NCBI GenBank assembly: GCA_903813345.2
Contig: CAIIXF020000003.1
Coordinates: forward strand, 5,233,815 to 5,297,814
DNA: 64,000 nt
Direction: 5' to 3'
From: Owenia fusiformis
Taxonomy: Eukaryota; Annelida; Polychaeta; Sabellida; Oweniidae
Positions 7,101 to 64,000 of the stretch are shown here, in pieces; position 1 is the stretch's first letter, and every line of letters begins with the position of its first letter. A program made the translations under genes and the position numbers. The notes beneath the pieces were generated by a model that had not been told where the DNA came from, ran no database searches, and was given only the letters and a program-made list of their open reading frames with translations.

Positions 7101-10100
7101 GGGCAGACCAATTTGGTAAAGTTTGGAACAGTTGCTTTGAAGTGAAATTGTCCTAACTAATTGCTTGTGAATCTCTATGATTTGTTGAATTGAATTATTT
7201 AGAAAGTTATTTAGATAATGTGGAGCACTTTTATTAGAATTATGTGGAATAGGAATAAACAGCTCATTTCTCTTTTTCATAAGTGTTTTCAAATTCTTTC
7301 AACATTCCATACTGTTGCAGCTTATTTTCAATTTCTCTGATCATTTCCTTAGGTAATCCCTGTTTAAGGTTTCCTGTCAAGTTTGACCAGCCAAATTATC
7401 AAAAAATATTTCTAATTTTTTCAATAGATGAACTAGCTCTCTGCACCTTACCAGTCCATGCTGATGATGATTAGGATGAACAAGTGTGCATAACAATATC
7501 TTATTGAGAGGTTGGCAAATGAAAGTCTATTTCGAACTTTCAATTCTTTACTACTTAGATTTCTAATTGAATATTTGCATTATACTATTCAGTTAAACTA
7601 ATGATATAATGGTCAATGATGCTGATGGTAACAGCTTTGTTTTTATCAGTAAAGGCCTCCTTAAGAGTTTCCTCTCCAACGGCTGTTGCCATGGTAACTA
7701 CTTTGAACTTATTAGTGTTGACCAACTGTTGTTGCCACGTTATTATCTGCAATATCATCGATTATGGTCTCACCAGTGTCTCCCTCAACAGTTCTCACCA
7801 TGGAAATATCATCAGTTGTTTTCACCCAATGAGTTGTTGCCATGGTTGTTGCCGCATTAGCAGCAATTCTTTTATCACATGATTTAAATCCAAGCCAGAA
7901 TGCATTGATATTCTGATAGTCGGAAGTAGCGGATTCAACCATATCAATGACATTGTTTTCTCTTACACATACATTGTCTTTCATGAGGTCCTTCATGTAT
8001 GTATAGCAGTTATGATAGCAGCTTTGTCCTGTTACATCACACACATTCTCTATCTTATGAATTATTGAATTCAGCTGAGTTTGTATGAAATCATCAAGGT
8101 TGCAGCCTTCTACAACTCCCAGCTTCCCTGCATCCCGCACTGCAACTGCACAGTAATCCTTGGAATCCTGATTGAGAATGAACAGCATGTGGTGGCTGAC
8201 TGGGTAGTACTGTATAAAAGCTAAGCACATTTCAGCTGATGTTCCATGACCCCAAATGGTGGTTGAATTTCTTCCTGTAGAATTGTAGTTGCAAGTCAGA
8301 TATACCTCATCTTGACTCTGAATCTCAACTGGTGTCTCAAAACTAAAAAATAGTTTTTTGATATTCTGAGCAAATATGTTTTTTCTTCTCTATTAAAGAT
8401 TGTCAATGCAGTAAATCAGTAAATGCAGAAGTGAAAAAATGGTTGAAATACATTTTTGTGACTAATCAAAATTCTCATTGGGATTAACTTTTAATTCACT
8501 TCAATTCAACAGTTAATTCAATTTTTAATTCTTGTTTTTTTTATTAAAAGATTCAATGGCAGTCTCATTTGAACCAATAAAGGAAATGTAATTATCCATT
8601 TTACAATAATTTCTTAAATGACTGGCACATGAGGTGATAAGGTCTTTCAAATTCTTCCCAGGCACTATTATATATATATAACTTTTATTGACATCTTGTA
8701 TCATTACATTAGTCACTATTGAAAACTTAATGATCATATTTAGAAATTCTAAAATCGTTAAAACCATTGGTTATTCAAATCATTTTAAATATTCTCAGAA
8801 TTTGTTTCCTACTACTTCAATGTGATATTTTGTCTCTAATAGGCTAAATACTTACATATGCCTCACTGGGTGGTCATAGTGATAGACATCGACTTCCCCA
8901 AGAGAGCTGATCATCTTACCATCTGTATACTGCTCCAGTTTTATTGACTTACCTACAAAATATAGATCCACTGCTATAGCTGGCAATACACATTCTGCCA
9001 AAATTTTACCAGAGATACAGTGTTCACTTGTTAAAGAACAATGTTGAAATGGTCACATTTGAAACTGAGAATCTGAGGAAAAATACCATGAACAAAATGT
9101 TTATAACTGATGACAAAATGTTTGCATAACAAGAAAAAATGTTTTCCACACATCATCAGTATTAAATGGTTGTATTATGAAAAGTATTCTGTTACTGTCC
9201 TGATTCTCATACCAGATATTTGAAGATAAACAAAAAGGAAAGTGGGAATCTATAGTTTTGAAATTTCATTTTCTGGTCCACATTAACATACCAAGTCAAA
9301 ACTATATGTACATGTACTGTAGATGTCGAGGAATTGCACATACCAAGTCAAAACTATATGTACATGTACTGTAGATGTCGAGGAATTACACATACCAAGT
9401 CAAAACTATATGTACATGTACTGTAGATGTCGAGGAATTGCACATACCAAGTCAAAACTATATGTACATGTACTGTAGGTGTCGAGGAATTGCACATACC
9501 AAGTCAAAATACTGTAGATTTCAAGGAAATACAAATACCTAGGGAATGCATATGAAGATAATTTCCGACTATTGCCAGTGGTCCAGTATCTTGGGTGATG
9601 TAATTGGTGCACACCTTAGACATCTTACTGGTTGCTGTATACAGAGGCATGTTGGGTGGTATGTTTAAACTAGTTTGGCCTATTATCATCATGCCCCCAT
9701 CATAAGGACGCAGATTTGGTGTGTAGTATATCAGCACACCACTGCTGTCGTAATAATCATCTCGTAATTCTGGATTATTCCAATGATTCTGAAAAACATG
9801 GAGATATAAGAAAAAGCTCACACATTGTTGTTTGCTTGTTGGTTATTTGCACCATTATACTTGATGAGCGTGGTGTAAAAGTCAGGGGCGTAGGAAGGTG
9901 TAAATTCAACACTACGCCAAAAAATCCCGCCAAAACTATGAAACAATTGTGTCAAATATTCTATATTAAAACGCCTATTTTATGCTCGTTAAACGTCATT
10001 TTATGGCAATAGAATGCAATGTTTTCATAACCTAAATGTGAACGGAAATGTTTAAGCGATGCATTTGTATGGGCGATTGGTCATACGTATAGGTTGGCGT

Positions 10101-13100: not shown

Positions 13101-16100
13101 AATAATTTATAACGTTTTACTTGTTCGTTCAATCGATGCAATTGACAATTGCGCACTTCCGTATCACGTTCTCATTGGTTGGTGTGTATGCCATATACCG
13201 CAGGTGAATCTGTCATACACCGCAAGTGAATATGCCATATTCGTTGCGGAATATGACATATTTTTGTATCGTGTTTACCGCGTAACACGTTGATGACCAG
13301 TGATGGCAATAAAGTGTCCACTGTTGTGATTGATGAGATGTGATAAGTTTAATGAAATGTTTCCATGCTTATTTCTCCCAAAATGATGAACATATTATGT
13401 GCTTAATGTCAAAGGTTACATGAGTCTTAGATTTTTACGAAAATGGGTACTCTTTTAACAAATGATTTCTGTTACCATAGCAACCAAATTACCAACATCG
13501 AGGCACTTGTTATACTGGTAGAACATGTAAACGGATGATTACCCGTAAATATCAAGATGATTGATTGAATATTCTAAGAATTATACATGGCTTTCAAAGT
13601 ACCCCCTTAATGTGCACTTTTTAACAAATTATTTCTCTTACCAGAGCAACCAATTGACCAACATTGATGGCACTTGTCATACTGGTAGGACATGATAAGC
13701 AGATTATTACCTGAAAATATCAAGATGATTGATTAAATATTCTGGGAATTATACATAGTACCCCCTTGATGTGCAATTTTTAAGAAATGATTTCTGTTAC
13801 CATAGCAACCAATTGACCAACATTGATGGCACTTGTCATACTGGTAAGACATGATAAGCAGATGATTACCCATAAATATCAAGATGATTAATTGAATATT
13901 CCAGGAATTATACATAGTATCTCCTTAATGTGTATTTTTTAATAAATTATTTCTGTTACCATAGCTACCAAGTGTTAAACATTAATGAAACTTGTCATAG
14001 TGGTAGTGCATTATAAGTAGATGATTACCTGTAAATATCAAGATGAATGGCTGTATATTCTAGGAATTATAGATGGCTTTCATTGTACCCCCCTTAAAAT
14101 CATACCAATGGGGTATAAATCTGTTTACCATAGTAACCAGTTATCCAACACTGATGAAATCTTCCATGATAGTCAAACATAATGATGTGAATAATATCTG
14201 TTAATTTCAGGACAAATGGTTACTTATTTTCTTCAAAAAGTTGAACACAAATAAAGAATTCTTTGGAAAAGTGCCACATCCCCTTTCTAAATTTACTTGC
14301 ATTGCCATATAATCATCAGGAATAGATTCCACTGTGTGGATAAGATAAAACAGCAGTTGATTTAATATTATCAAATATACTTGAAATAAGTTTTCTAAAA
14401 TGGTTTCATGGTGATTCCTTCCAATTTCATGAAAATAATATGTGTTTTGTCTCATGGGGTATCTTACATTTTGACGAAAATGTGTACTTTTTAACATATG
14501 ATCTCCATTTCCATAGCAACCAGTTGATCAACTTTAATGAAACTTGTTATAATGGTAGGACATGATAAGTACATGATTTCCTGGAAAAATCAAGATGATT
14601 GGCTCTATATTCTAGGAATGATATATGGCTTTCCAAGTACCCCCCCTTAAAATTACACCAGGGGGTATAAATCTGAATATTTCCAAAACGCTGAAAAACT
14701 AGACACCAATGATTTCAGAATCAATGTATAATAATAAACCACAAATAACCTATATGAAGAGAAATTTGCTACTTTTCAAAACCACTTTTACAACACGCTC
14801 ATCCAGTATTAGTGATAATGTTTGTTTGTAGAAATATATGCAAATCATGTTAAACATTCCCATCAAGTATCATGTTTTGAATCTAAAAAGTGACTTATTG
14901 AGATAAACAACAGACAATACCTGAATAACAAGTTTTGTGTAGCCAGTTTTTCCAATTCTGTAACCCATTCTTTCATTCTCACATTGACCATGGAAGCCTA
15001 ATGACCAAGCAATAATCATCTGAGTGCACCTATCATCTGATGGCCTCATTCCACATGGAGAGGCAGTATTATACATTGACCCGGCATCATCTCCTATAAT
15101 ATATAACATTACATATTAGTCTTGTGACCATATAATCATTTAAGTTCACCTGTCATCTGATAGCTTCATTCCTCGCATCTCCTGTAATTTATAACATTAC
15201 ATATTAGTCTTATGACCATATAATCATCTGAGTTCACCTTTCATCTGATAGCTTCATTCCTCATAGAGAGGCAGTATTATACATTGACCCGGCATCATCT
15301 CCTGTAATGTATAACAACATATTAGTCTTATTACCATATAATCATTTGAGTTCACCTGTCATCCGATGGCTTCTTTCCTCATGGAGAGGCAGTATTATAC
15401 ATTGACCCGGCATCATCTCCTGTAATGTATAACAACATATTAGTCTTATTACCATATAATCATTTGAGTTAACCTGTCCTCTGATAGCTTCATTCCTCAT
15501 GGAGAGGCAGTATTATACAGTGACTCGGCATCATCTCCTGTAATGTATAACAACATATTAGTCTTGTGACCATATAATCATTTAAGTTAACCTGTCCTCT
15601 GATAGCTTCATTCCTCATGGAGAGGCAGTATTATACAGTGACTCGGCATCATCTCCTGTAATGTATAACAACATATTAGTCTTATAGCCATATAATCATT
15701 TGAGTTAACCTGTCCTCTGATAGCTTCATTCCTCATGGAGAGGCAGTATTATACAGTGACCCGGTATCATCTCCTGTAATGTATAACAACATATTAGTCT
15801 TATTACCATATAATCATTTGAGTTAACCTGTCCTCTGATAGCTTCATTCCTCATGGAGAGGCAGTATTATACAGTGACCCGGTATCATCTCCTGTAATGT
15901 ATAACAACATATTAGTCACATGACCATATAATCATTTGAGTTAACCTGTCCTCTGATAGCTTCATTCCTCATGGAGAGGCAGTATTATACAGTGACCCAG
16001 TATCATCTCCTGTAATGTAGAACAACATATTAGTCTTATGACCATATAATCATTTGAGTTCACCTGTCATCCGATGGCTTCATTACTCATGGAGAGGCAG

Positions 16101-19100
16101 TATTATACAGTGACCCGGTATCATCTCCTGTAATGTGGAACAACATATTAGTCTTATTACCATATAATCATTTCAGTTCACCTGTCATCCGATGGCTTCA
16201 TTCCTCATGGAGAGGCAGTATTATACATTGACCCGGCATCATCTCCTGTAATGTATAACAACATATTAGTCTTATGACCATATAATCATTTGAGTTAACC
16301 TGTCCTCTGATAGCTTCTTTCCTCATGGAGAGGCAGTATTATACAGTGACCCGGCATCATCTCCTGTAATGTAGAACAACATATTAGTCTTGTGACCATA
16401 TAATCATTTGAGTTAACCTGTCCTCTGATAGCTTCATTCCTCATGGAGAGGCAGTATTATACAGTGACCCGGTATCATCTCCTGTAATGTGGAACAACAT
16501 ATTAGTCACATGACCATATAATCATTTGAGTTAACCTGTCCTCTGATAGCTTCATTCCTCATGGAGAGGCAGTATTATACAGTGACCCAGTATCATCTCC
16601 TGTAATGTAGAACAACATATTAGTCTTATGACCATATAATCATTTGAGTTCACCTGTCATCCGATGACTTCATTACTCATGGAGAGGCAGTATTATACAG
16701 TGACCCGGTATCATCTCCTGTAATGTGGAACAACATATTAGTCTTATTACCATATAATCATTTCAGTTCACCTGTCATCCGATGGCTTCATTCCTCATGG
16801 AGAGGCAGTATTATACATTGACCCGGCATCATCTCCTGTAATGTATAACAACATATTAGTCGTATGACCATATAATCATTTGAGTTAACCTGTCCTCTGA
16901 TAGCTTCATTCCTCATGGAGAGTCAGTATTATACAGTGACCCGGCATCATCTCCTGTAATGTAGAACAACATATTAGTCTTGTGACCATATAATCATTTG
17001 AGTTAACCTGTCCTCTGATAGCTTCATTCCTCATGGAGAGGCAGTATTATACAGTGACCCGGTATCATCTCCTGTAATGTGGAACAACATATTAGTCTTG
17101 TGACCATATAATCATTTAAGTTCACCTGTCATCTGATAGCTTCATTCCTCGCATCTCCTGTAATTTATAACATTACATATTAGTCTTATGACCATATAAT
17201 CATCTGAGTTCACCTGTCCTCTGATAGCTTCATTCCTCATGGAGAGGCAGTATTATACATTGACCCGGCATCATCTCCTGTAATGTATAACAACATATTA
17301 GTCACATGACCATATAATCATTTGAGTTCACCTGTCATCTGATAGCTTCATTCCTCATGGAGAGGCAGTATTATACATTGACCCGGCATCATCTCCTGTA
17401 ATGTAGAACAACATATTAGTCTTATTACCATATAATCATTTGAGTTCACCTGTCATCCGATGGCTTCATTCCTCATGGAGAGGCAGTATTATACATTGAC
17501 CCGGCATCATCTCCTGTAATGTAGAACAACATATTAGTCTTATTACCATATTATCATTTGAGTTCACCTGTCCTCTGATAGCTTCATTCCTCATGGAGAG
17601 GCAGTATTATACAGTGACCCGGTATCATCTCCTGTAATGTATAACAACATATTAGTCTTATTACCATATAATCATTTGAGTTAACCTGTCCTCTGATAGC
17701 TTCATTCCTCATGGAGAGGCAGTATTATACAGTGACTCGGCATCATCTCCTGTAATGTAGAACAACATATTAGTCTTATTACCATATAATCATTTGAGTT
17801 CACCTGTCCTCTGATAGCTTCATTCCTCATGGAGAGGCAGTATAATACAGTGACCCGGTATCATCTCCTGTAATGTATAACAACATATTAGTCACATGAC
17901 CATATAATCATTTGAGTTAACCTGTCCTCTGATAGCTTCATTCCACATGGAGAGGCAGTATTATACAGTGACCCGGTATCATCTCCTGTAATGTAGAACA
18001 ACATATTAGTCTTATGACCATATAATCATTTGAGTTAACCTGTCCTCTGATAGCTTCATTCCTCATGGAGAGGCAGTATTATACAGTGACCCGGCATCAT
18101 CTCCTGTAATGTATAACAAGATATTAGTCTTATTACCATATAATCATTTGAGTTAACCTGTCCTCTGATAGCTTCATTCCTCATGGAGAGGCAGTATTAT
18201 ACAGTGACTCGGCATCATCTCCTGTAATGTAGAACAACATATTAGTCTTATTACCATATTATCATTTGAGTTAACCTGTCCTCTGATAGCTTCATTCCAC
18301 ATGGAGAGGCAGTATTATACAGTGACCCAGCATCATCTCCTGTAATGTGGAACAACATATTAGTCTTATTACCATATAATCATTTGAGTTAACCTGTCCT
18401 CTGATAGCTTCATTCCTCATGGAGAGGCAGTATTATACAGTGACCCGGTATCATCTCCTGTAATTTATAACAACATATTAGTCTTATGACCATATAATCA
18501 TTTGAGTTAACCTGTCATCTGATAGCTTCATTCCTCATGGAGATACAGTATTATACAGTGACCCAGCATCATCTCCTGTAATGTAGAACAACATATTAGT
18601 CTTATGACCATATAATCATTTGAGTTAACCTGTCCTCTGATAGCTTCATTCCTCATGGAGAGGCAGTATTATACAGTGACTCGGCATCATCTCCTGTAAT
18701 GTAGAACAACATATTAGTCTTATTACCATATAATCATTTAAGTTAACCTGTCATCCGATGGCTTCATTCCTCATGGAGAGGCAGTATTATACAGTGGCTC
18801 GGCATCATCTCCTGTAATGTAGAACAACATATTAGTCTTATGACCATATAATCATTTGAGTTAACCTGTCCTCTGATAGCTTCATTCCTCATGGAGAGGC
18901 AGTATTATACAGTGACCCGGTATCATCTCCTGTAATGTGGAACAACATATTAGTCTTATGACCATATAATCATTTGAGTTCACCTGTCTTCTGATAGCTT
19001 CATTCCACATGGAGAGGCAGTATTATACAGTGACCCTGCATCATCTCCTGTAATGTAGAACAACATATTAGTCTTATGACCATATAATCATTTGAGTTAA

Positions 19101-22100
19101 CCTGTCCTCTGATAGCTTCATTCCACATGGAGAGGCAGTATTATACAGTGACCCGGTATCATCTCCTGTAATGTAGAACAACATATTAGTCTTATGACCA
19201 TATAATCATTTGAGTTAACCTGTCCTCTGATAGCTTCATTCCTCATGGAGAGGCAGTATTATACAGTGACCCAGCATCATCTCCTGTAATGTGGAACAAC
19301 ATATTAGTCTTATGACCATATAATCATTTGAGTTAACCTGTCCTCTGATAGCTTCATTCCTCATGGAGAGGCAGTATTATACAGTGACCCGGTATCATCT
19401 CCTGTAATTTATAACAACATATTAGTCACATGACCATATAATCATTTGAGTTCACCTGTCCTCTGATGGCTTCATTCCTCATGGAGAGGCAGTATTATAC
19501 AGTGACTCGGCATCATCTCCTGTAATGTAGAACAACATATTAGTCTTATGACCATATAATCATTTGAGTTAACCTGTCCTCTGATAGCTTCATTCCTCAT
19601 GGAGAGACAGTATTATACAGTGACCCGGTATCATCTCCTGTAATGTATAACAACATATTAGTCTTATGGCCATATAATCATTTGAGTTAACCTGTCCTCT
19701 GATAGCTTCATTCCACATGGAGAGGCAGTATTATACAGTGACCCGGTATCATCTCCTGTAATGTATAACAACATATTAGTCTTATGACCATATAATCATT
19801 TGAGTTAACCTGTCCTCGTGATAGCTTCATTCCTCATGGAGAGGCAGTATTATACAGTGACCCGGCATCATCTCCTGTAATGTGGAACAACATATTAGTC
19901 TTATGACCATATAATCATTTGAGTTAACCTGTCCTCTGATAGCTTCATTCCACATGGAGAGGCAGTATTATACAGTGACCCGGTATCATCTCCTGTAATG
20001 TATAACAACATATTAGTCTTATGACCATATAATCATTTGAGTTAACCTGTCCTCTGATAGCTTCATTCCTCATGGAGAGGCAGTATTATTCAGTGAGCCG
20101 GTATCATCTCCTGTAATGTGGAACAACATATTAGTCTTATTACCATATAATCATTTGAGTTAACCTGTCCTCTGATAGCTTCATTCCACATGGAGAGGCA
20201 GTATTATACATTGACCCGGCATCATCTCCTGTAATGTATAACAACATATTAGTCTTATTACCATATAATCATTTGAGTTCACCTGTCCTCTGATAGCTTC
20301 ATTCCTCATGGAGAGGCAGTATTATACAGTGACCCGGTATCATCTCCTGTAATGTATAACAACATATTAGTCTTATTACCATATAATCATTTGAGTTAAC
20401 CTGTCCTCTGATAGCTTCATTCCACATGGAGAGGCAGTATTATACATTGACCCGGCATCATCTCCTGTAATGTATAACAACATATTAGTCTTATTACCAT
20501 ATAATCATTTGAGTTCACCTGTCCTCTGATAGCTTCATTCCTCATGGAGAGGCAGTATTATACATTGACCCGGCATCATCTCCTGTAATGTATAACAACA
20601 TATTAGTCTTATTACCATATAATCATTTGAGTTAACCTGTCCTCTGATAGCTTCATTCCACATGGAGAGGCAGTATTATACAGTGACTCGGCATCATCTC
20701 CTGTAATGTATAACAACATATTAGTCACATGACCATATAATCATTTGAGTTCACCTGTCCTCTGATAGCTTCATTCCTCATGGAGAGGCAGTATTATACA
20801 TTGACCCGGCATCATCTCCTGTAATGTATAACAACATATTAGTCTTAGTACATATGTATATTCAGCTGAGTATGCAATGTGTAAAACAGCACTGGTTTCT
20901 GGTATCTGTCACTGACTTGGAAGATAGTGAAATTACACTTTCAGACTAATAGGTAATTTAAGGCAGACATTAAATGCATACATGTCTTATGATTTCTTAT
21001 TACTTTCTCAGTTGAACTCATGCTCTTTGTTTATCATTCAAGTGCTCATCTCCATTAATTCCAACGGTCATGTCATTTTCCATTTTATGGGATCCACACC
21101 TGTAACCTCATAACCATTGATCCCAGTTCCTTCTTTTGCCTCATTTATTGTCATCAAAATATCACAATATATAGCAGAGTCATTAAGGTTCAGCTGGAAA
21201 GTAACATTTTGGTAAAAAATTGCTATACCTGCACATGTTATTTTCTGGTACAAAATTAAGTATGAAGGCATGTTTGTATTTCCTTGCTTTTTTCAGTAAA
21301 GTATCATTACACTGTCTATTTTTAGTAAACCTGGAAACAGGTCAATGGTAGCTCCTGTGATGTCTGGAAACCTTCATACTTTATTTTGTACCAGAAAATA
21401 ACATGTGCCATATAGCAATTTTTTACCAAAATGTTATTTTCCAGCTGTACCTTAAGACGTGATTCTGTGTCATTTATACTACTTCCAACTCATAGTATAT
21501 GTTGGTTTTGACATATATCAGTGTAAGCTTCAGTTATTTTGCATTTTGACCTACTTTTGCAGCTTGACCTACATGAAGTTTTGAAACATATGGAAGAGGA
21601 ATAACAAAATGAGCTCAGTTAATGGTGCCATTTTCATTCCTTTTTGTTATTCTAACTCTTATGTCGCATTCAGAATTGAAATCTAATTGATATCTCCTAT
21701 ACATACTAACCATAACCTCCTAAACATCCAAAAATCACAGAATGGTGCATCACTGCCGTGTTGTTTATGATTGGCTTAGAGGCAATTATGTGATAATCTT
21801 GGTCAGTGGGAATATCAAATGTCTGGCAGTAATAATTGGTCTTTTGTGCTGGAACCTTAGTATGGTTAAAGCGCAAAGTCAATGTATGCACATCCTCTGC
21901 AAATGTAAAAATAGAGATAATTATAATAAACATTCAGTATACTGTAACAAATAGTTTATCATATAAAATTTAAAATTTACATTGTACATCCTTAGATAAA
22001 TTGTTAATACCATTTTTATATACCTACATGTAACATAATATAAGTGTTTTCTTTTATATGTAGTCTAGTTGTCATTTTAATGATTTCTGTTAAACCGCAA

Positions 22101-43100: not shown

Positions 43101-46100
43101 TGTGAGTATAAGGCAGTAGCACTTGCATGCGACAATGCATTCATAAACCTACATGTGAGTATAAGGCAGTAGCACTTGCATGCAACAATGCATTCATAAA
43201 CCTACACGTGAGTATAAGGCAGTAGCACTTGCATGCAACAATGCATTCATAAACCTACACGTGAGTATAAGGCAGTAGCACTTGCATGCAACAATGCATT
43301 CACAAACCTACATGTGACTATAAGGCAGTAGCACTTGCATGCGACAATGCATTCATAAACCTACATGTGAGTATAAGGCAGTAGCACTTGCATGCAACAA
43401 TGCATTCATAAACCTACATGTGACTATAAGGCAGTAGCACTTGCATGCAACAATGCATTCATAAACCTACACGTGAGTATAAGGCAGTAGCACTTGCATG
43501 CAACAATGCATTCATAAACCTACACGTGAGTATAAGGCAGTAGCACTTGCATGCAACAATGCATTCATAAACCTACACGTGAGTATAAGGCAGTAGCACT
43601 TGCATGCAACACTGCATTCATAAACCTACATGTAAGTATAAGGCAGTAGCACTTGCAGGCAACAATGCATTCATAAACCTACATGTGAGTATAAGGCAGT
43701 AGCACTTGCATGCAACAATGCATTTATAAACCTACATGTAAGTATAAGGCAGTAGCACTTGCATGCAACAATGCATTCATAAACCTACATGTGACTATAA
43801 GGCAGTAGCACTTGCATGCAACAATGCATTCATAAACCTACACGTGAGTATAAGGCAGTAGCACTTGCATGCAACAATGCATTCACAAACCTACATGTGA
43901 CTATAAGGCAGTAGCACTTGCATGCGACAATGCATTCATAAACCTACATGTGAGTATAAGGCAGTAGCACTTGCATGCAACAATGCATTCATAAACCTAC
44001 ATGTGACTATAAGGCAGTAGCACTTGCATGCAACAATGCATTCATAAACCTACACGTGAGTATAAGGCAGTAGCACTTGCATGCAACAATGCATTCATAA
44101 ACCTACACGTGAGTATAAGGCAGTAGCACTTGCATGCAACAATGCATTCATAAACCTACACGTGAGTATAAGGCAGTAGCACTTGCATGCAACACTGCAT
44201 TCATAAACCTACATGTAAGTATAAGGCAGTAGCACTTGCAGGCAACAATGCATTCATAAACCTACATGTGAGTATAAGGCAGTAGCACTTACATGCAACA
44301 ATGCATTTATAAACCTACATGTAAGTATAAGGCAGTAGCACTTGCATGCAACAATGCATTCATAAACCTACATGTGACTATAAGGCAGTAGCACTTGCAT
44401 GCAACAATGCATTCATAAACCTACATGTGACTATAAGGCAGTAGCACTTGCATGCAACAATGCATTCATAAACCTACATGTGACTATAAGGCAGTAGCAC
44501 TTGCATGCAACAATGCATTCATAAACCTACACGTGAGTATAAGGCAGTAGCACTTGCATGCAACAATGCATTCATAAACCTACATGTGACTATAAGGCAG
44601 TAGCACTTACAGGCAACAATGCATTTATAAACCTACATGTGAGTATAAGGCAGTAGCACTTGCATGCAACAATGCATTCATAAACCTACATGTGAGTATA
44701 AGGCAGTAGCACTTGCATGCAACAATGCATTCATAAACCTACATGTGAGTATAAGGCAGTAGCACTTGCATGCGACAATGCATTCATAAACCTACATGTG
44801 AGTATAAGGCAGTAGCACTTGCATGCAATAATGCATTCATAAACCTACATGTGAGTATAAGGCAGTAGCACTTGCAGGCAACAATGCATTCATAAACCTA
44901 CATGTGACTATAAGGCAGTAGCACTTGCATGCAACAATGCATTCATAAACCTACATGTGAGTATAAGGCAGTAGCACTTGCATGCAACAATGCATTCATA
45001 AACCTACATGTGAGTATAAGGCAGTAGCACTTGCATGCAACAATGCATTCATAAACCTACATGTGAGTACAAGGCAGTAGCACTTACATGGAACAATGCA
45101 TTCATAAACCTACATGTGAGTATAAGGCAGTAGCACTTGCATGCAACAATGCATTCATAAACCTACATGTGACTATAAGGCAGTAGCACTTGCATGCAAC
45201 AATGCATTCATAAACCTACATGTGAGTATAAGGCAGTAGCACTTGCAGGCAACAATGCATTCACAAACCTACACGTGAGTATAAGGCAGTAGCACTTGCA
45301 TGCAACAATGCATTCACAAACCTACATGTGAGTATAAGGCAGTAGCACTTGCATGTGACAATGCATTCATAAACCTACATGTGAGTATAAGGCAGTAGCA
45401 CTTGCATGCAACAATGCATTCATAAACCTACATGTGAGTATAAGGCAGTAGCACTTGCATGCAACAATGCATTCATTAACCTACATGTGAGTATAAGGCA
45501 GTAGCACTTGCATGCGACAATGCATTCATAAACCTACATGTGAGTATAAGGCAGTAGCACTTGCATGCAACAATGCATTCATAAACCTACATGTGAGTAT
45601 AAGGCAGTAGCACTTACATGCAACAATGCATTCACAAACCTACATGTGACTATAAGGCAGTAGCACTTGCATGCAACAATGTATTCATAAACCTACATGT
45701 GAGTATAAGGCAGTAGCACTTGCATGCAACAATGCATTCATAAACCTACATGTGAGTATAAGGCAGTAGCACTTGCATGCAACAATGCATTCATAAACCT
45801 ACATGTGAGTATAAGGCAGTAGCACTTGCATGCAACAATGCATTCATAAACCTACATGTGAGTACAAGGCAGTAGCACTTACATGGAACAATGCATTCAT
45901 AAACCTACATGTGAGTATAAGGCAGTAGCACTTGCATGCAACAATGCATTCATAAACCTACATGTGAGTATAAGGCAGTAGCACTTGCATGCGACAATGC
46001 ATTCATAAACCTACATGTGAGTATAAGGCAGTAGCACTTGCATGCGACAATGCATTCATAAACCTACATGTGAGTATAAGGCAGTAGCACTTGCATGCGA

Positions 46101-49100
46101 CAATGCATTCATAAACCTACATGTGAGTATAAGGCAGTAGCACTTGCATGCAACAATGCATTCATAAACCTACATGTGAGTACAAGGCAGTAGCACTTGC
46201 ATGCAACAATGCATTCATAAACCTACATGTGAGTATAAGGCAGTAGCACTTGCATGCAACAATGCATTCATAAACCTACATGTGAGTACAAGGCAGTAGC
46301 ACTTGCATGCAACAATGCATTCACAAACCTACATGTGAGTATAAGGCAGTAGCACTTGCATGCGACAATGCATTCATAAACCTACATGTGAGTATAAGGC
46401 AGTAGCACTTGCATGCAACAATGCATTCATAAACTTACATTGAGTATGCTCTTCAAAATGTCTTGGTGCTTTTTAAAGGACTTTTTGAACAAAGTTTGAT
46501 AGAGATAGAGTGAAGCTATTCATTTATCTGTCATTTTGTCTCTCTGTCCATCAGGAGGGTAACTTAAATACTAGTGTACAGATTTTTAGTAGTTTTTTTT
46601 TGAGTTGCCACCAATAGGCAGTTTTTCAGTAATGATCTATTAAGCATATATAAGTTTTTTGGCCTGACCCCCAGGGGGCCATTGTAGGGCATCAAAAAAT
46701 TGGGATCTGTCTGAAGTATTTCTCTTCTAAGCATTGCTTTGTTATATTCAAAGCAATGGTACCAAGTTAACCCTTTCCCGACGTGAATATAAGAGGAAAA
46801 TGTTGGCTCTGGTGACGGATAAGTAAGAGCAGTTTTTAGGGGAAAACTGCTAAATACCTACGCCCCGGGACCTATACCCTGAATTTTATCACTGAAATAC
46901 AATTTTTAGTAAGGATTATCACATTAGAACAACTTGTCAAAATTTGGTGTAAAAATACTGAATAGAACTTGAGATATTGTCATTTCATTGATAGATAAAA
47001 ATAATGGTGCCAAAAGGAGCCTATCGTCCTGAAAGGTATTACATAATAGGGCTCCATATGGAGCCTATCGTCGTGAAAGGGTTAAGTTTGTATCATTTCA
47101 TTTTATATGTGCTTTTGAAATTCCAAAATGGTCACCTACAGTATGTATCGCTAATTACGAGTTGCTATTCCATGAAATTGCCCTTTTCTTGTTTTTGATT
47201 GTAACCAGTATTGATACTTTCACCATTTTAAGATGCTCACTTTGTTGCTATAACATCCCATACAACCTCTGTCCCATACATTAACAAGTAGTATACATAG
47301 TTAATAAGGGCTTAATTGGATGGAAATCTTAAGTTTGAAATTACAAGAGGGGAATCTAGTGGACAAATACCAAGAAGTTTGTCAATTTGTGAGAGATTGA
47401 TGTATGAATGGTGTTCTTTCTCCTTGCAGAACCTGTATGGGACCTCTGAACTGTATGTATTGGGCAGTGACAAGAGGATGGTGGACCTGGCACTTCTAGG
47501 TTATGTCAACACGAGCGTCACAATAGAGCAATTAAGAAGTATTCATGGAGAATGTTCATTGCCTTTAAAATTATGGCACAAAATCATGTCTACTTATGTA
47601 AGCTATAAAATATTATTTTCAGTTGAAAAATTATTAGGTCAAATATAATCATGCAAAAAGTGTAGTTATATTTCTATACCAGGGTTGCCAAAGTTAGAAT
47701 TAGTCAAAAATGGATGAATTCTTTCAACGAATTTTGAGTATCAAAAGTTGAAACATGAATTATTGACTGAAAAATATGAAAAAGTGAATAAAATCATATA
47801 TAAATGTATATGTGCATATGGAGTCAGTGAATTTTAGTGGTATATTACTCCGAGGACTTCTCTTTACTTTAGTTTGTACATTCATTACAATAGTTCCCTT
47901 CTATTCTTTCAGAGTCAGAACAGGTCATATGGTAGGACTAAAGAATGGGAAAGACGAATCAGAAGTCAAGAGTTCACAGTTGGTCAGAACTGTGATACAG
48001 CTATATCTGTCTACAATGATATTGATAGTAAAATGATGGACTATTATGATGTAAGTAAATAGGGGATCATGATTGTACAGAAGGGAAATCATCGAATCAA
48101 GATAAAATGATGATTAAGATAAAAAATGAAATGATAAATTTAATATGTTTTGGAATCGCATTTTTGAAATATTTAACTATATATGTTTGATAAACAGGCC
48201 TGTCAGACAGGGAGGCACATGTATGTTGGTGCAGTGATACCCCTCTTAGAAATCTCTAAAAACATAGCCAGGGAAAAGCATCGTATTCCAGCAATCATTA
48301 ATGATCTTCGTTAGTTAACAATGCAGGGTTCTCACTAGGCTTTTAGACTTCGGAGATTCTCTGGAGTCTAATGTCTTAAACCCTCTTGCTCCAGAGTCTA
48401 CTCTTGAGAAAATACATAAAACTGGATACAAACAAGGAATAGGAAGTCAGAAACCTTTTAGAAATAAATATTGGGATTAAAATAGCAAGATAATCTTAAG
48501 AAGTATGTTGAAAACTGTACTTATAGGATATCTCTGATCTAACATAGGGGAGAAGTAGTCGCGATACCGCAATAAAGTAGTCACAATACCGCTAAAAATC
48601 CGGGGTCTAAAAATTTCCTGGTGAGAACCCTGCAATGTATTTATACTTTCTGGAAAAGAAGCTGTTTTTGTGCAGTATACATCGTTTGGCTATCTGTCAT
48701 GTTTTCTTATTTTCAAGTTTTTCGGCATTCTTGGTAAATGTTAAGGCGGCCATTTTGGATTTTTCGTCCTAAAATCGTGTCTGTGAAGGCTTGTTTTAAA
48801 AAATAAAAACGAATTTCCCATTGAGAGCAATGTTAAATTAAAACATTTTTTTAGAAATAACTAAACGGTCAATCTTTCAAATTTTCACATATTTTGTAAT
48901 ACATCAGTATATCTTTTACCAGGATTTTTTTCAGGAAAATCTGAATTGTAGAAAAAAGCTGATACACTGTGAAGTAATACCTTAAAACGTGTCTCTTGAG
49001 GGTTGTTTACAGGTTTTATGGATTCATCCTAAAATTTTAGAGATGTTTCTATGGAAAGTTTAGAACTGATTAGTTTTTAGGCAGTCTGGGTAAATGTTAA

Positions 49101-52100
49101 GGTGGCCATTTTGAATTTTCCATCCCGAAAAGTGTATTCTGTTCAAGGGTGCGATTTTGTTCACCCTGTGGCTTTTCTAATTAGGCTGTCTATTGGGTAT
49201 TTTTTAAAGTACATATATGATACAAATATTTGAAATTGCTTTTAATAAATAAACTTATTAAAAATGATAATATTTAATAAACTTTGGAAATGAAATGTAC
49301 ATATCTTTAATTATGCATATTTGATAATGTGAAATTGATATGTTTATAGCTGATTGATGCTTTGATGCATGCTTGCAGTGCTTTAAGAAAAAGATTAAAA
49401 TGTAATGAGTGGCTTATTATTTCTTCTTCTTATAATTTGTAAAATTTGTTTTCTAATAGGGGTATTGCAGACAGCGAATATAATATTGAGGTGCTTCTAT
49501 CTCACTTTAATACATCTAACAGTACTAGCTCACTGAAAAGGTGTTTTGCAGATACAAAATGAGGAACAGTATATCAGTATCATGGCTTCTATATATAATG
49601 GTTGAAGATTTCTGTTCCATATATTGTACTTGTCATTTGCTCTTTATTCCTTGCCTCTCTTTTTCATTCAGCTCTGAATCATTCAACTACATCTTGATTG
49701 CTTGAGCTTTGGATGTAATTGGATTGAGTTGCCAAGAGCAAAGTAGCTTTTATTGATGTTTCAATCCAATTTAGATGTACTAAAGGGGTTCCCACTAGTG
49801 GTGTCAATTAACCGCTTGAGCATTAACCGGTTAACCGGGGGTTTTTACCGGTTAAAGTCGGTTAACCGGCGGGAAATTTGAACTGATAATTTCAAATGAA
49901 ATCTTCATTTTCGATTTTGAAAGTTGAAACAAATTGGAAAAAATGATATAGCGGCGTTTATTTTTTACGTTCGTCAAGCTTTACTCTATTCTATGTAAGT
50001 AAGCGCGGGAAAGCAATGTGGCAGGGATTAAAGTTGCTGATTGGATGTTTGTAAGGAATTATCGGACCTATCACATGTATGAGTAGCTCAAATAAAACTG
50101 ACGCTTGAAAAACAAACAGATTAAAATGCAAAGTAAGCGTGGGAAAGCAATATGGCAGGGATTAAAGTTGCTGATTGGATGTTTGTAAGGAGTTATAGGA
50201 CTTATGACATGTATGAGTAGCTTACGTGAAACTGACACCATAAAACCAAACGGATTAGCATGCAAAATAAGCGCGGGAAATCACAGAATTATACACGGTC
50301 AACTAACCGCCCATAAAAACACAGACCGGTCAAGGCATTATCGGCGGTTAACCGGTTAACCGGTTAATACTTGACACCTCTAGTTCCCACCCAGGGGCTG
50401 ACACACATATCTTTGCTGGCTTCTGAATCATGTTACACCTTAATGCATGTCCATTTATTAGAAAATTATCATCCTGGTTATATTTTGAAATATCAATTAG
50501 AGTGAAAAAGAGGGGGCAAGGAATATGGTAAAGATTTGGTCAGACTCTAAGACAAACAATAAATTGTAGATGTGGGTGGACACAATCCTTAACACTAGTC
50601 GCTCAGGCGTGTGGTCAGTGGCATTAATAGCAACAATATCAGGAGGTGGTGCAGGTATGTAACCATCATTACTAATATAGCTTACAATTTATGGTTGCTA
50701 TACTATTATCACTAAGTAATGCGGGTAGACTTAGATTACCATAGTAACTAACATATTAGGTCATAGTTTATTGCCATGGTTACAATATCACTAGGTAACT
50801 TGAGTGGAGAGATTTTTCTATAGCAAATCATTAGAACATAATGATAAATTCATTGTTATTCCTTTGAAAACATGTGTAGAAATTAATATATGATGGAATC
50901 ATTGCTTCTATCCTGTAACAGTATGTTTTAGCAGGTATGTAACCATAGTTACTAAATTTGGATCGTCATAGTTACAAATCAATGCTACAGCAACATATTT
51001 AAGCAGCTTTAAGCAGGTATGATCTGAAAATTAAAGGCAAGCCAGCAGGTACTAACCTATGTTAAAGCTTTCACAAAAGTTCACAATTTAACAGCATGAG
51101 AAAAGCAACAAAATGGAAAATAAAAAAAGTTGCAGATATTTTTTATTAACATTCATTGAAGTTCAGAGGAAGTCCTGTTATGTTGTATAGTCCTATTTGA
51201 TAGAAATGCAGTGAACTCTTGCATGATTCTGCTTCTGCAGTGTGTCAATGAAGTGTCGTTCAACTCTGGAAGGTCTCTACAATGGGGCTACATGATGCTG
51301 GTGATCTTGGCTAAGGGAGGATGTGGTAGGATGTTGTTTTGTCATTTTTGTTGAATTGCATGGGGGATTGACTACTAATATTATTATATACACACTGTAC
51401 TAATAGCATTTGGTTGCATGCGGTTTTTATTCTTGTTTCTAGCAGTTTGGTCATACAAATAAATAATGTATTGGGAAAGGCAGTTACATGCTTAATTAAA
51501 GGATTCACTCTATAACTTCTCACACATCTATGTAGTTTCAACTAAAGGATGCTTGGCTAAATGTTTCCACAAGATTTCTTTCTTTCAAATGTGATTTGAA
51601 GTACAACAATGTGTTAGTATTATAGGAGTAAGCTAGAGAAGTTAATGTTATAAAACTATGAGACCTGCCAGTCCTCCATATATATTTAAGATTGTGCATT
51701 AAATCTGGGGTACCTTATCTGAGGTAACTTTTATGGAGAAGCTTATCTGTTGAATTGAGGAAACGTATGTATATGTAGGGAACCTTATCTAGTGAACATT
51801 TTTATCTGAGGTAAGTAAACCTTATCTAATGAACCTTATCTGGGGTAACTTATATGGGGAACCCTATCTAAGCTAATTTTTATCCAATCGAACAAAGTTC
51901 GGAGGGATATAGGGAACGCCTCCGTCTGTCCGTCCGTCCGTCCATCCGTCTGTCCGGGCAATAACTCAAATACCGTTAGCCCGATTTTGTTCATATTTTG
52001 TACACATATACCCTATGGGGGTAGAAGTTCTGCTCAAAAGCCGATTTTCAAAATGGCCGCTCATTTAAAAATGGCAGCCATTTTAGTGCCGATTTTACAG

Positions 52101-55100
52101 TAATTGAGGTGCAATATGTAAAACTGTAATAGCAATATGTTTTAAATGTATAAAAATTATGTAGGACATTAATAAAGCTAGAAATGTAGATATTGAAGAA
52201 GCACATGTCAGCCATCTTGAAAAATGGCTGCCTTTACTCGTTATTTTACGATTTTTGCTGTAACTCGAAAAGTAGTGGAGCGATTTTGTTCATATTTGGT
52301 ATGTGAATACTATAAGCATGGCACACTGTCTAATGACACTTTTGGTAGAAGGTGGCCATTTTGAAAAATGGCTGCCATTTTTTGTTATATACTTTGTTTG
52401 TAAAAATGCCAGCCATGGCTGTTCAATGGGATTCGCTACGCTTTGGCGTTGCCGTTATTCTGGTTTATGGATAACCTTATCTGATGTTACTTTTTATGGG
52501 GAACCTTATCTGATGAACCTTATCTGAGGTAACTTTTATGGGGTGGCTTATCTGAGGTTACTTACATGGGGAACCTTATATGGGGAACCTTATCTGAGGA
52601 AACTTTTATTGGGAACTTTATCTGGTGTAACTTATCTGAGCCAACTTCTATGATGAATGTACTTTTAAAATCTTATTTACACTGACTATTACTGTACTAT
52701 ACTCACAGTCACTTGAATGGTAATTTTAAAATTTTAATAGCTGAATATTCATTAGTTGGTGAATAATTAACCTTATACCTGTGACACACAGCCTGTTGTG
52801 TACCCGAAATATTAAACTATAACATATCTATTAAAGGGTTCCAGCAACTATGTGACTGTTTGTCCGATGGGTCATTTCAGCAACATTTTATTGTTCTATT
52901 ATGATTCTGGCATGACTCAACAATGGTAATGTTGTATGATTATCTGAATGACATATGACAGATCAAAAATCAAATGATGTCAGTTTACTGATTTTCTGGA
53001 TATATACAAGTTGGAACTATTGTTGTCTTAGTAAACTCAGAAACTGTTGGCCATTTGATATTACTAGTATCCTTAAATATATGTTGGAGGTCACACTTCA
53101 GGTAGAAGTAAATAATGGACATAGTCAAAAATAGATTACTAGATTGGAAATAGCATGTATACTTACTGTACTAATGGTGTAACACACTTATATTTTGCAT
53201 GACAGTGCAAATTACTATGAAGTTCATTATGTTGATTTCCATAACTATCTAAGCCATGCAGGGGCGAAGCCAGCAAATGTCAAGGGGGTGCGATTGTTTT
53301 GGTTTTCTTCACTGCGAGTGAAGCGAGCCCCAAAAAGGGAAGTACAGTGGAATTTTTTTAGAATTTATTAAAAATTTACATTGTGATCGCACCCCCCCCC
53401 CCCTCCTGATTACACCCATGCCTATCTATTGACTCCTGAAAAATCATGGGTCCAAATATTGTCATTCGTATTTCTTTATTCTATTACAGATTGGACAAGT
53501 GAACACTACTCAGATGTTGCTCTACTCCTAGCAGACTGCACAAATGTCTACAGTGCTGATGTTCCCTCTGCTCTACAGGTGAAACATTCTCTCATACTTT
53601 ACCCTTGCCCTTTGCTCTCCAGGTGAAACATTCTCTCATACTTAAGAATTTCCCAATGCTCTTCAGGTGAAACATTCTCATACTTTACCCTTGCCCTTTG
53701 CTCTTCAGGTGAAACATTCTCTCATACTTAAGAATTTCCCAATGCTCCTCAGGTGAAACATTCTCTCATACTTTACCATTTCCTTTTGCTCTTCAGGTGA
53801 AACATTCTCTCATACTTTACCATTTCCTTTTGCTCTTCAGGTGAAACATTCTCTCATACTTTACCATTTTCTTTTGCTCTTCAGGTGAAACATTCTCTCA
53901 TACTTTACCATTTTCTTTTGCTCTTCAGGTGAAACATTCTCTCATACTTTACCATTTCCCTTTGCTCCTCAGGTGAAACATTCTCTCATATTTACCCTTG
54001 CCCCTGCTCTTCAGGTGAAACATTCTCTCATACTTTACCATTTCCTTTTGCTCCTCAGGGGAAACATTCTCTCATACTTTACCATTTCCTTTTGCCCTTC
54101 AGGTGAAACATTCTCTCATACTTTACCATTTCCTTTTGCTCCTCAGGTGAAACATTCTCTCATACTTTACCATTTCCCTCTGCTCTTCAGGTGAAACATT
54201 CTCTCATACTTTACCATTTCCTTTTGCTCCTCAGGTGAAACATTCTCTCATACTTTACCATTTCCTTTTGCTCCTCAGGTGAAACATTCTCTCATACTTT
54301 ACCATTTCCTTTTGCTCTTCAGGTGAAACATTCTCTCATACTTTTCCATTTCCTTTTGCTCCTCAGGTGAAACATTCTCTCATACTTTAGCACTTCCCTC
54401 TGCTCTTCAGGTGAAACATTCTCTCATACTTTACCATTTCCTTTTGCTCTTCAGGTGAAACATTCTCTCATACTTTACCATTTCCTTTTGCTCCTCAGGT
54501 GAAACATTCTCTCATACTTTACCATTTCCTTTTGCTCCTCAGGTGAAACATTCTCTCATACTTTACCATTTCCCTCTGCTCTTCAGGTGAAACATTCTCT
54601 CATACTTTACCATTTCCTTTTGCTCCTCAGGTGAAACATTCTCTCATACTTTACCATTTCCTTTTGCTCCTCAGGTGAAACATTCTCTCATACTTTAGCA
54701 TTTCCCTCTGCTCTTCAGGTGAAACATTCTCTCATACTTAAGCATTTCCTTTTGATCTACAGGTGAAACATTCTCTCATACTTTACCATTTCCTTTTGCT
54801 CCTCGGGTGAAACATTCTCTCATACTTTAGCATTTCCCTCTGCTCTTCAGGTGAAACATTCTCTCATACTTTAGCATTTCCTTTTGATCTACAGGTGAAA
54901 CATTCTCTCATACTTTTCCATTTCCTTTTGCTCTTCAGTTGAAACATTCTCTCATACTTTACCATTTTCTTTTGCTCTTCATGTGAAACATTCTCTCATA
55001 CTTTACCATTTCCTTTTGCTCTTCAGGTGAAACATTCTCTCATACTTTACCATTTCCTTTTGCTCTTCAGGTGAAACATTCTCTCATACTTTACCATTTC

Positions 55101-58100
55101 CTTTTGCTCTTCAGGTGAAACATTCTCTCATACTTTACCATTTCCCTTTGCTCTACAGGTGAAACATTTTCTCATATTTTACCATTTCCCTTTGCTTTAC
55201 AGGTGAAAAATTCTCTCATACTCTATTGTTTCATAAATGGGAAAATATTTTGTGTTTATGATGATGTGTATTCTTTTGATATTTGGTATGGTTTTCAGGG
55301 AAAGTAAAAAATATACATAGAATACAATTGACTATTATGTTATTCAATATCAGTTTGGCACTGAACCTCCTTCACAATGCATAATCAACACAAATCAGTA
55401 AGTGAGAATGATTTTATTGTTTCAGGAGCTGGTAGATGTCATCTTCAAAACTGGGCAAGCTGATCATTTCACAAAACTCACTCCAGAGGTGAGTGCTGAT
55501 TTGTTTAATTCTTATGATGTGTAGTGTGGAAGGTTATCTCATGTTGATCATCATAGTCAGAAACAAGTTACACATTTAAAGTGGCTCTACCTCTAAATAA
55601 CTCCACAAATGTTAAAATTGTAGCAGCCCCTAACATATAGGTTTGGTTTTTGAAAAGGAATGAATTTGCGGTAATTATCTGGAATAAGCAATTTATCAAG
55701 GTTTGATATTTACGTAAAAGAAGGTCATATTAAAGAAACAAATAACAGATTTATAAAAACAGGTATATTAAGAACCAGACCCTGAGTCAAGACCTTTGGA
55801 GTTTGAAAATCCATGGCCTATCATATTTACTAGTTCTATGACATACAAAACATTTCTTCTGCATATGGTAGCTAATCCATAATAAGACTTGAATATTTTA
55901 CTCTTTTTATGAATTTTAGGAGGCAGCTAATTGGTTGAAATCATCTGAGAGTGGAGATGCGGGTGAAAGGTTTACACAATTTTTGAACATGCACGGTCAT
56001 CGGTGTATTAGAGAGGTTAGTGTTCAACTATAAAATTGCATTTGGTGTAGAGCTTTAACTCTGAGTAGATAACTGATTTTTCATTAGGTCTGAATTTATT
56101 TAACATCTTACAGGTGTGTATATGGACATTTTGATTTCAAAAACATTTTGATTTCAAAAACTATGTAATATAGATGTATAAATGTAGTAGGTTATCACAT
56201 ACTTTCACTTTATATGGGTCCATGGTAATATATGAATCATTTTTCTTTTTTAGGCAGAATTTCGGGAAAAATCCTGGAGAAGTGAGCCTTGGAAAGTAAC
56301 AGCTGTGCTGCAGGTAAGGACAACACTTTCAAACCCTCAACTAACATGTACTGTATACATGTATAAAAAATATGCTGCATATTGAGAATGTCATGTTCAC
56401 ATCACATGTTAACTATGAGCCATGCTTAAAGTTGTGCCAAAAAATATTACTGATAATAATACTCATTGGGCCAGAAGACTTTAGTTCTTTGTTTGATGTT
56501 ATGCAAAAATTACAGAAAAACACAGAAAACCCTCTGTGGCCTAAAGGTTAGCACGCTAGACTCTTAATGCCAAGGTGCTGGGTTCAATCCCAGCATGTGG
56601 TAAAAGGAGCTAGTTTCTGTTAACTGGTACACTAGAGAGGTGATTACTAGAGTGCTGCTGATTGAACGAAAGGCTGGCAATGACTGGAACTGTCTATGGT
56701 CCTAGCCAGGATATAGATACCAGGTCCTGAGAGATTAATACAACGGTGATCTGTTTCTACCTTCAGATCAAGTTACATTACCCTACCACATATGGTACCA
56801 TATTGAAACTCAAATGAAATGAAATATTTAAATGGCTTCATTTTATAAACTCCATACCAGACGCCCAAGAAGTTTTAGAGAATTGCCCTCATTAGATCTT
56901 TGAGTGGCTAATTGTACATGCCCACTGATGATAAATGTAAAGTAATGTACATTGCTTTATTTATTTTAGAATATAGTGCGTGGGCCCAGAAATAATAAGG
57001 CAGCTAAGGTGGAGACATCTATTGAAGATGCAATATCACAATTGAAAACACCTATCTCTAAAAATGCAAGGTTTGTACATTGTATATTGTAAATTTTATC
57101 AATAAGATACATGTAATTTAGGATTTTTTAACTACTTTATTCTGTTCATCATTCTACATTTCATCTCATTCACATTATCAATCTTCCACCATTATAGAGA
57201 GTAACTTAAATTCTTTTTTTAATGTTTGTTGTATACCAAGCCAAAAATGTCTGATGACCTTTGCTTCATTCATATTGTTTGCAATATTATATGTTTTAAC
57301 TGTTCTTAACTTGTAAAATGTGATTCATATGAAATAAATAACCTTGAAAAAATTTCTTTAAATATCTGAGAAGTGAGGGGATACATTGTACTTATTACAT
57401 ATTATTGATATATTTGTAGAATGGTATTAAAATTTATCGTACCAAGAGCACGTAGGGCAGTGGGAGACAGAGAATGGGGTAAATCTGTTTCTATTGAGAT
57501 GGTGGACATATTCAAGAAAGCATATTGGAAACTAGCTAAGCTCATGGTGACTGAGGTAAATGATCACAGTTACCATGGTAACTAATTATATAAAACTTGA
57601 ATAAAAGTATGAACTAATCTTGGTTCATGATGTTTTACATAACATTTGTTTTATTTCAGATTTCTGATGGTAAAATTGCATAAAAATACATTTAAGATTA
57701 TTAAGATCTTTGTATCAAAATTGTAAATGATCTGTAATCGTCAGAGGGTTGTACTAATGTATTTTATGTTTAACACATTAGGGAAGGCTCCCAGATGAAG
57801 ACTTGTTGTTTTTCTTCACTCATCAAGAACTGAAAGTTCTGCTGGAGAGCAGATCTGGCAGATTAGTTGCAAAGTAGGTAGAATCTGTCACTATATTGGA
57901 ATCTGAGACCTAATTCATGAAAGCTCCGCAAGCTTGCGTGTCTGTAGGGTATTTGCGGACCCATTATGTGTCCGCATTTTATTGCGTTGCGTGGTATTCA
58001 CCAAGCTATCTGCAAATCCGTCGAGTTTCAGCATGTAATCCCCATATCTGCAATCCGTGTCCTTGACGACCGTATCACCAATTAGGACACCAGTCACAAA

Positions 58101-63318: not shown

Positions 63319-63413
63319 TACAGTGCAGATCAAGGACATGTCTACTGATATGACTAAAGTTAGAGGTTTGTTAGATGAAATGAAGTCCAAGCTAGATAAT
63401 ACAGAATATGTTT
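63319..63413 (+). CDS. Possible exon of a downstream gene (coiled-coil peptide)
   Basis: After tggtgtttacag an open stretch encodes QIKDMSTDMTKVRGLLDEMK and SKLDNTEY, a heptad-like helix. It begins about 100 bp after the dikinase poly(A) signal. Its apparent end TAATACAGAATAT|GTTTTA is repeated in the 58-bp array that follows. Could equally be chance coding; I do not recognise the protein. Confidence 0.3.
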
Positions 63414-64000
63414 TATCAAGTCCATATGCCACATTGGAGCAACATGCCTGGGCCATATTGGAGCTAGATGTAGATCTAGATAATACAGAATATGTTTTAT
63501 CGCGCCTGAACCATATTGGAGCTAGATGTAGATCTAGATAATACAGAATATGTTTTATCATGCCTGGGCCATATTGGAGCTAGATGTAGATCTAGATAAT
63601 ACAGAATATGTTTTATCGCGCCTGGGCCATATTGGAGCTAGATCTAGATCTAGATAATACAGAATATGCTTTATCGCGCCTGGGCCATATTGGAGCTAGA
63701 TGTAGATCTAGATAATACAGAATATGTTTTATCGCGCCTGGGCCATATTGGAGCTGATGTAGATATAGATAATACAGAATATGTTTTATCGCGCCTGGGC
63801 CATATTGGAGCTAGATGTAGATCTAGATAATACAGAATATGTTTTATCGCGCCTGGGCCATATTGGAGCTAGATGTAGATCTAGATAATACAGAATATGT
63901 TTTATCAAGTCCATGCCACATTGGATCTACAAGTAGATCTCGATAATACAGAATATATTTTATAAGGAGAACTCATAGTGAAGCTGCTAATGACCTGTAC
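63385..64000. repeat. 58-bp tandem repeat, ~10 units, running out of the window
   Basis: Unit includes 'gatctagataatacagaata', 'tgttttatcgcgcctgggcc' and 'atattggagctagatgta'. Highly similar copies; the last visible ones diverge. Confidence 0.92.

Follow-up and report, generated by a model that had tools for sequence, protein, structure and literature searches.

Mirages in an annelid: minisatellites spanning exon-intron junctions at a locus of Owenia fusiformis and in other genes of its genome

Tandem copies of exon-intron boundaries, termed "mirages", have been described in lancelets, in the Adh3 gene and the BflGb6 and BflGb9 globin genes (PMC3087553) and also in troponin C and PGBD5 (PMC3902484). 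According to the globin paper, either boundary of an exon, 5' or 3', can be affected, AG/GT signals are present in many copies, the BflGb6 mirage has 3 and 6 units in two haplotypes, and Adh3 data together with globin reverse transcription polymerase chain reaction (RT-PCR) suggest regular splicing despite the mirages. Six minisatellite arrays of this kind were identified in a 64,000-nucleotide stretch of the genome of Owenia fusiformis (assembly GCA_903813345.2, contig CAIIXF020000003.1, positions 5,233,815 to 5,297,814 of the forward strand), hereafter called the window and numbered from its first letter. As in the lancelet genes, they consist of tandem boundary copies, 5' or 3', with splice signals in many copies; they are mirages in an annelid, outside the lancelets, and the kind itself was already named, contrary to a sequence-only reading of the window that knew of no named system. 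They differ in reaching 66 copies and 5.8 kb, against the 3 and 6 units given for BflGb6, in that six or seven arrays lie in one locus, and in that their frequency was tested against a null model. Copy number that is unstable between alleles or in soma is a further trait of mirages; the present data come from one assembly.

A 1995 paper on the human IFI6 (6-16) gene reportedly described a minisatellite that gives multiple splice donors; that array likewise repeats a donor site and differs in being single, in a single gene, with its inner donors used, by the paper's title. The potato RdRp gene carries a tandem duplication across an intron-exon boundary that copied splice signals, according to the report on it (PMC4974935). 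Tandem duplication of splice signals is common to that case, to AGGT intron gain and to the present arrays, whereas in AGGT intron gain one duplication yields a new intron and here many copies lie within an existing one. No case was found in which a duplicated exonic AGGT supplies both splice sites of a new intron; the arrays cross existing junctions into existing introns, and their breakpoints are not at AG/GT. For earthworm metallothionein, the accessible part of the report describes intronic minisatellites and unexplained exon-4 duplications and no junction-spanning units (PMC12783039). Searches of a limited collection of literature listed no annelid case of such arrays. In the genome, the linker domain PF16915, which is not known outside annelids, has three matches, and the host is probably no lancelet. 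The GFP family PF01353 has no match, which is weak evidence because no control matched either, and a COX1 search for a mitochondrial contig found nothing.

All six arrays were recovered from the window by Tandem Repeats Finder (TRF) with the unit lengths first noted, and reading of the exons placed them on exon edges, four on donors and two on acceptors, in two genes on opposite strands, as the sequence-only reading had held. The arrays, with a seventh candidate, are as follows (a slash marks the junction).
A1, 9286 to 9539, minus strand: donor mirage with a 52-bp unit, in the Cu2-monooxygenase gene (TRF interval 9286-9509), exon 9539-9788.
A2, 15088 to 20855, minus strand: 118-bp acceptor mirage of about 49 copies, exon 14921-15093, first exon base 15093.
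A3, 29889 to 30170, plus strand: acceptor mirage with a 35-bp unit, in the PPDK_N gene, exon 30143-30252, acceptor 30142/30143.
A4, 36797 to 40431, plus strand: 64-bp donor mirage of about 57 copies, exon 36691-36808, donor TAACAG/GTAATG.
A5, 42951 to 46447, plus strand: 53-bp donor mirage of 66 copies, exon 42903-42995, donor CTACAT/GTGAGT.
A6, 53562 to 55222, plus strand: 44-bp donor mirage of about 38 copies, exon 53490-53578, donor CTACAG/GTGAAA.
A7 (possible), 4491 to 4755, plus strand: 60-bp array at 4491-4740 before the predicted acceptor GTTGTAG/GAGAGG of exon 4756-4807.

The unit spans an exon-intron boundary in the window arrays, and both 5' boundaries (donors of A1, A4, A5 and A6) and 3' boundaries (acceptors of A2 and A3) are duplicated, as in mirages. 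The TRF intervals of A2 to A6, five of the six, contain the junction; at A1 a gap of 29 bp separates the interval from the last exon base, 9539 (-), and the junction is reached only through a degenerate outer copy. This degenerate first copy spans the true A1 donor, TTCCCTAG/GTATTTGT, and a 51-base alignment across the donor beats 500 of 500 shuffles in its match to the unit. The real A2 exon starts with GDDAGSMYNTASPCGM... at the acceptor TATTATAG/GAGATG, the real A3 exon translates as SHQTHYEQFGEMKG...RDHSYG, and 45 of the 53 bases of the A5 unit are exonic. Throughout, in the six window arrays and in eight found outside the window, the real junction lies in the outer copy on the exon side. 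Probes made of exon plus unit from A4 and A5 match this locus alone, which argues that these two arrays were born here, and no second allele was seen in the one assembly. A7, which the sequence-only reading did not include, may be a degenerate acceptor mirage; its array ends 15 bp before the predicted acceptor, and the resemblance is weak (4 of 500 shuffles were equally good).

The exons were delimited by reading the sequence with the help of Pfam families (PPDK_N, Cu2_monoox_C and Temptin_C) and a purpose-written small gene finder, which also called the edges of the A1, A4, A5 and A6 exons; the A2 and A3 exons were missed by it and were added by eye. Five minus-strand exons spanning the A1 and A2 junctions join into a single 431-aa open frame. 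The first 289 amino acids of this frame match Pfam Cu2_monooxygen and Cu2_monoox_C and are colinear with residues 174-457 of human dopamine beta-hydroxylase (4zel; PDB search, E 1.5e-29); a PDB search with a single monooxygenase exon gave nothing. The predicted edges of the A1 and A2 exons are well supported by this frame and these matches. The A3 exon gives an open frame when joined to exon 6112-6225. The two host genes are as follows.
PPDK_N-domain gene, 939 to 62825, plus strand: predicted exons from about 0.9 to 62.8 kb, several from the gene finder alone.
Temptin_C and Cu2 monooxygenase gene, 7774 to 29054, minus strand: predicted from Pfam matches, colinear homology and open frames, with exons 28870-29054, 26949-27081, 22645-22743, 21717-21896, 14921-15093, 9539-9788, 8856-8979 and 7774-8342.

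The minus-strand gene is apparently nested in a 24-kb intron (6226-30142) of the plus-strand gene, because exon 6112-6225 runs in frame into the A3 exon and the exon order and open frames agree with this arrangement. A genome search with PF01326 found one place, within the plus-strand gene; the second PPDK_N exon there was missed, so the search is no proof of a single-copy gene. The span of this gene also includes an open frame at 2968-4215 (+) matching reverse transcriptase PF00078, which is probably a retroelement.

Recurrence in other genes was assessed in independent loci, 10-kb stretches around myosin or p450 matches that were selected blind to repeats in a set of 20 and then a set of 8; the matches lie on contigs C1 to C12. 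The test covered 23 myosin loci; the five p450 loci (L016-L020) were left out of it, and no array of test size was found between their p450 matches. Exons at the myosin loci were taken from a profile built for this analysis and from the gene finder, for whose training 15 of these 23 loci had been used. In its training set the gene finder recovered 138 of 140 junctions at a penalty of 18 and called 34 antisense exons in every 150 kb; it over-predicted exons at low penalty and was hence tightened, and a penalty of 17 was used in the test. Arrays with a period of at least 20 and a score of at least 100 within gene spans were counted. Any such array was present in 14 of the 23 loci, and eight strictly junction-spanning arrays were found in 6 of the 23.
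Donor arrays outside the window: 125 bp (L002), 34 bp (L005), 83 bp (L011), 41 bp (L013) and 129 bp (L021).
Acceptor arrays outside the window: 91 and 260 bp (both L011) and 61 bp (L023).

The arrays at L012 and L022 were degenerate or borderline. Junction-spanning arrays are common in this genome and are a genome-level trait, beyond one gene, as the sequence-only reading had proposed from the window. Recurrence also bears on whether the arrays are an assembly artefact or the exon edges are wrong, which we regard as very improbable. Assembly is difficult where long arrays consist of near-identical copies, and the arrays were judged here from assembled sequence; but the copies differ at several positions, colinear homology backs the monooxygenase edges, the profile backs the myosin edges, and arrays of this kind recur at 6 of the 23 loci elsewhere.

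For comparison with random placement, each array was collapsed to one unit, this segment was slid over the gene span, wholly exonic placements were excluded, and the share of placements covering a junction was taken. Dispersed arrays were picked by hand, and the array at 7928-8000 of L021 was kept despite a match outside its own locus. With five dispersed arrays removed, 8 of the 29 local arrays at the 23 loci were strict cases against 3.61 expected (P=0.015), and the first 15 loci gave 6 of 15 against 2.66 (P=0.027). With a cut at a score of 300, set by the analyst as one of several splits, arrays at or above it gave 7 of 17 against 2.67 (P=0.006) and those below it gave 1 of 12 against 0.94 (P=0.63). 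The lenient count of 10 of 29 (P=0.0008) is biased upward, and lenient P values overstate the excess, because lenient calls were made only for near-junction misses (L012, L022, A1 and A7). An initial test restricted to exons from the profile gave 4 of 16 against 2.7 (P=0.27); as real exons of L002 and L011 were absent from the profile set, it was redone with the gene finder. The genic part of the window holds 17 array clusters, of which four were set aside as dispersed families; the 13 left include four 28-bp arrays in a duplicated block. Five of these 13 were strict cases (seven lenient) against 0.76 expected (P=0.0005), in a window chosen for this feature and with a few exon edges 1-2 bases off; with all 17 clusters, 5 were found against 1.43 expected (P=0.009). 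The earlier expectation that random arrays would rarely hit exon edges was thus too strong, the genome being intron-dense; the overlap exceeds random placement moderately, approximately twofold, and the excess is not beyond doubt.

The position of the unit relative to the junction was variable. The exonic share of the unit ranged from 0.12 to 0.85 and was consistent with a uniform distribution (13 arrays, Kolmogorov-Smirnov p=0.81, with offsets entered by hand). Breakpoints are thus scattered with respect to the junction, so AG/GT microhomology, which the sequence-only reading had suggested as the seed of the arrays, is not supported. Junction-directed birth, in which such microhomology, or nicks or R-loops at exon edges, would start the duplications, could explain some junction excess, but it is unlikely in view of the uniform breakpoints and of the four-copy arrays at L005 and L013, which share 0 and 2 bp at their ends (by eye).

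Inner copies retain splice signals. Among matched copies, the real one included, the donor GT is kept in 55 of 55 (A4), 65 of 65 (A5) and 33 of 35 (A6), and the acceptor AG in 8 of 8 (A3), so that AG/GT signals persist in many copies, as they do in lancelet mirages. When inner copies were located by core motif and scored, sites that equalled or outscored the real one made up 56 of 56 in A4, 41 of 53 in A5, 33 of 33 in A6 and 49 of 49 in A2; at the other loci they made up 8 of 8 (L002), 6 of 6 (L011 donor), 10 of 11 (L011 acceptor), 3 of 3 (L013), 5 of 5 (L021) and 3 of 3 (L005), with L023 the exception (1 of 4). Copies in A3 scored 7.5-11.2 against 11.0 for the real site, and those in A1 scored 5.8 against 5.2. 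Unit length is not a multiple of three in 12 of 13 arrays. If the second donor were used, six of the eight donor arrays tested would gain a stop within one unit and the other two, A6 and L005, would shift the frame, and in A2 a stop in the exon frame is present in 20 of the 23 copies carrying the exact 12-base core.

These strong inner sites raise the question of function, that is, whether the arrays are kept because their many equal sites have a regulatory role in splicing or are a source of new exons or introns. Intron gain from mirages was proposed in the globin paper (PMC3087553), the L002 copies form an open 69-base stretch between an acceptor-like site and a donor, and variation is lower in the splice motif than elsewhere in the unit for A4 (0.000 vs 0.021), A6 (0.013 vs 0.052) and A3 (0.028 vs 0.058). 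The opposite holds in A5, where the motif varies more (0.046 vs 0.015), and the signal of selection on splice sites within arrays is inconsistent. Variation is moreover confined to few columns, as homogenisation alone would give, and the in-frame stops of A2 argue against such a role. Retained splice sites are no proof of selection, and retention for function appears decidedly improbable.

Most probably, these mirages are random local duplications that happen to include a junction and are tolerated through exon definition, possibly with anchoring by the exonic copy. A local tandem duplication would by chance take in an exon-intron boundary, and the array would then grow into the intron by unequal exchange or slippage, with nearly every copy keeping a usable splice site. 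We infer that the exon survives by use of the copy bordering the exon body, which is the first donor or the last acceptor; this choice would be expected under exon definition, as it gives the shortest exon with its partner site, and longer alternatives would mostly carry stops or frameshifts. Selection would remove arrays inside exons, so that intronic and junction-spanning arrays remain. The exonic copy, kept by selection, may act as a persistent template and so lead to a moderate excess and greater array length. Tolerance of arrays where the outermost junction still works, one of the explanations offered in the sequence-only reading, fits the array anatomy. The regular splicing reported for lancelets despite mirages (PMC3087553, PMC3902484) agrees with this account.

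Several points weigh against this account. Its basis is genomic sequence, and several exons are predictions of the gene finder. With all 34 arrays included, 8 strict cases stand against 4.53 expected (P=0.059); without L011, 5 of 26 stand against 2.42 (P=0.083); and the last eight loci gave 2 of 14 against 0.95 (P=0.24). Pure chance, by which minisatellites would be born uniformly and junction-crossers tolerated with no excess at all, is a possibility to be taken seriously without being thought likely. It is favoured by these three results, by the low-scoring arrays and by the 3.6 of 29 that intron-dense genes would give under random placement, and is opposed by the result for the 29 local arrays, by the high-scoring arrays under their self-chosen cut and by the window, picked as it was for the feature.

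Array length bears on the anchoring component of the account of tolerated random duplications. Junction arrays in the independent set were longer than intronic ones, with medians of 735 and 179 bp respectively (n=8 and 19 after exclusion of two borderline arrays, p=0.034), and the corresponding difference in the window had p=0.08 (5 and 6 arrays). They had longer units (p=0.003) and a copy number that was no higher (p=0.70), which likewise counts against that account; the length excess is tied to unit length and not to copies, and the anchoring idea is thereby weakened. The data neither show nor exclude anchoring by the exonic copy, which could account for a real excess. A wider reading is doubtful on present data: junction-spanning minisatellites would be general among animals, the selected exonic copy would be an undying seed that sustains the array and allows it to outgrow ordinary intronic minisatellites, and strict exon definition would hide dozens of equally strong decoys.

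More than 50 near-identical donors beside one exon constitute natural competition experiments on splice-site choice and exon definition. If junction-spanning arrays are frequent outside lancelets, as their presence in 6 of 23 loci suggests, they would offer a standing supply of material from which new exons and introns could form, and they would also be a trap for gene prediction.

Other repeats were noted in the window and at the myosin loci. The segment 22645-26821 contains a duplicated block of roughly 2 kb, with 28-bp arrays in both copies and array starts 2058 bp apart; the block holds an exon of the minus-strand gene, whose copies are at 22645-22743 and 24713-24801 (-). Another 28-bp array, at 31535-32249, fills most of an intron, from about 42 bp after the donor to about 55 bp before the acceptor. 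The 58-bp array at 63446-63963 has a unit that continues a predicted coding stretch at 63324, without a clear splice site. Three dispersed families, which are probably mobile elements with internal tandem repeats, have units of about 162 bp (6594-7009 of the window, L003 9475-9997 and L028 74-946), about 145 bp (L008 4649-5526 and L024 7135-7903) and about 134 bp (49997-50280 of the window and L021 4813-5096). Finally, a muscle myosin gene (G000:C9:37986009-37994334) has twelve tandem matches to one stretch of the myosin head (approximately positions 18-84), which are likely to be a large set of mutually exclusive exons.

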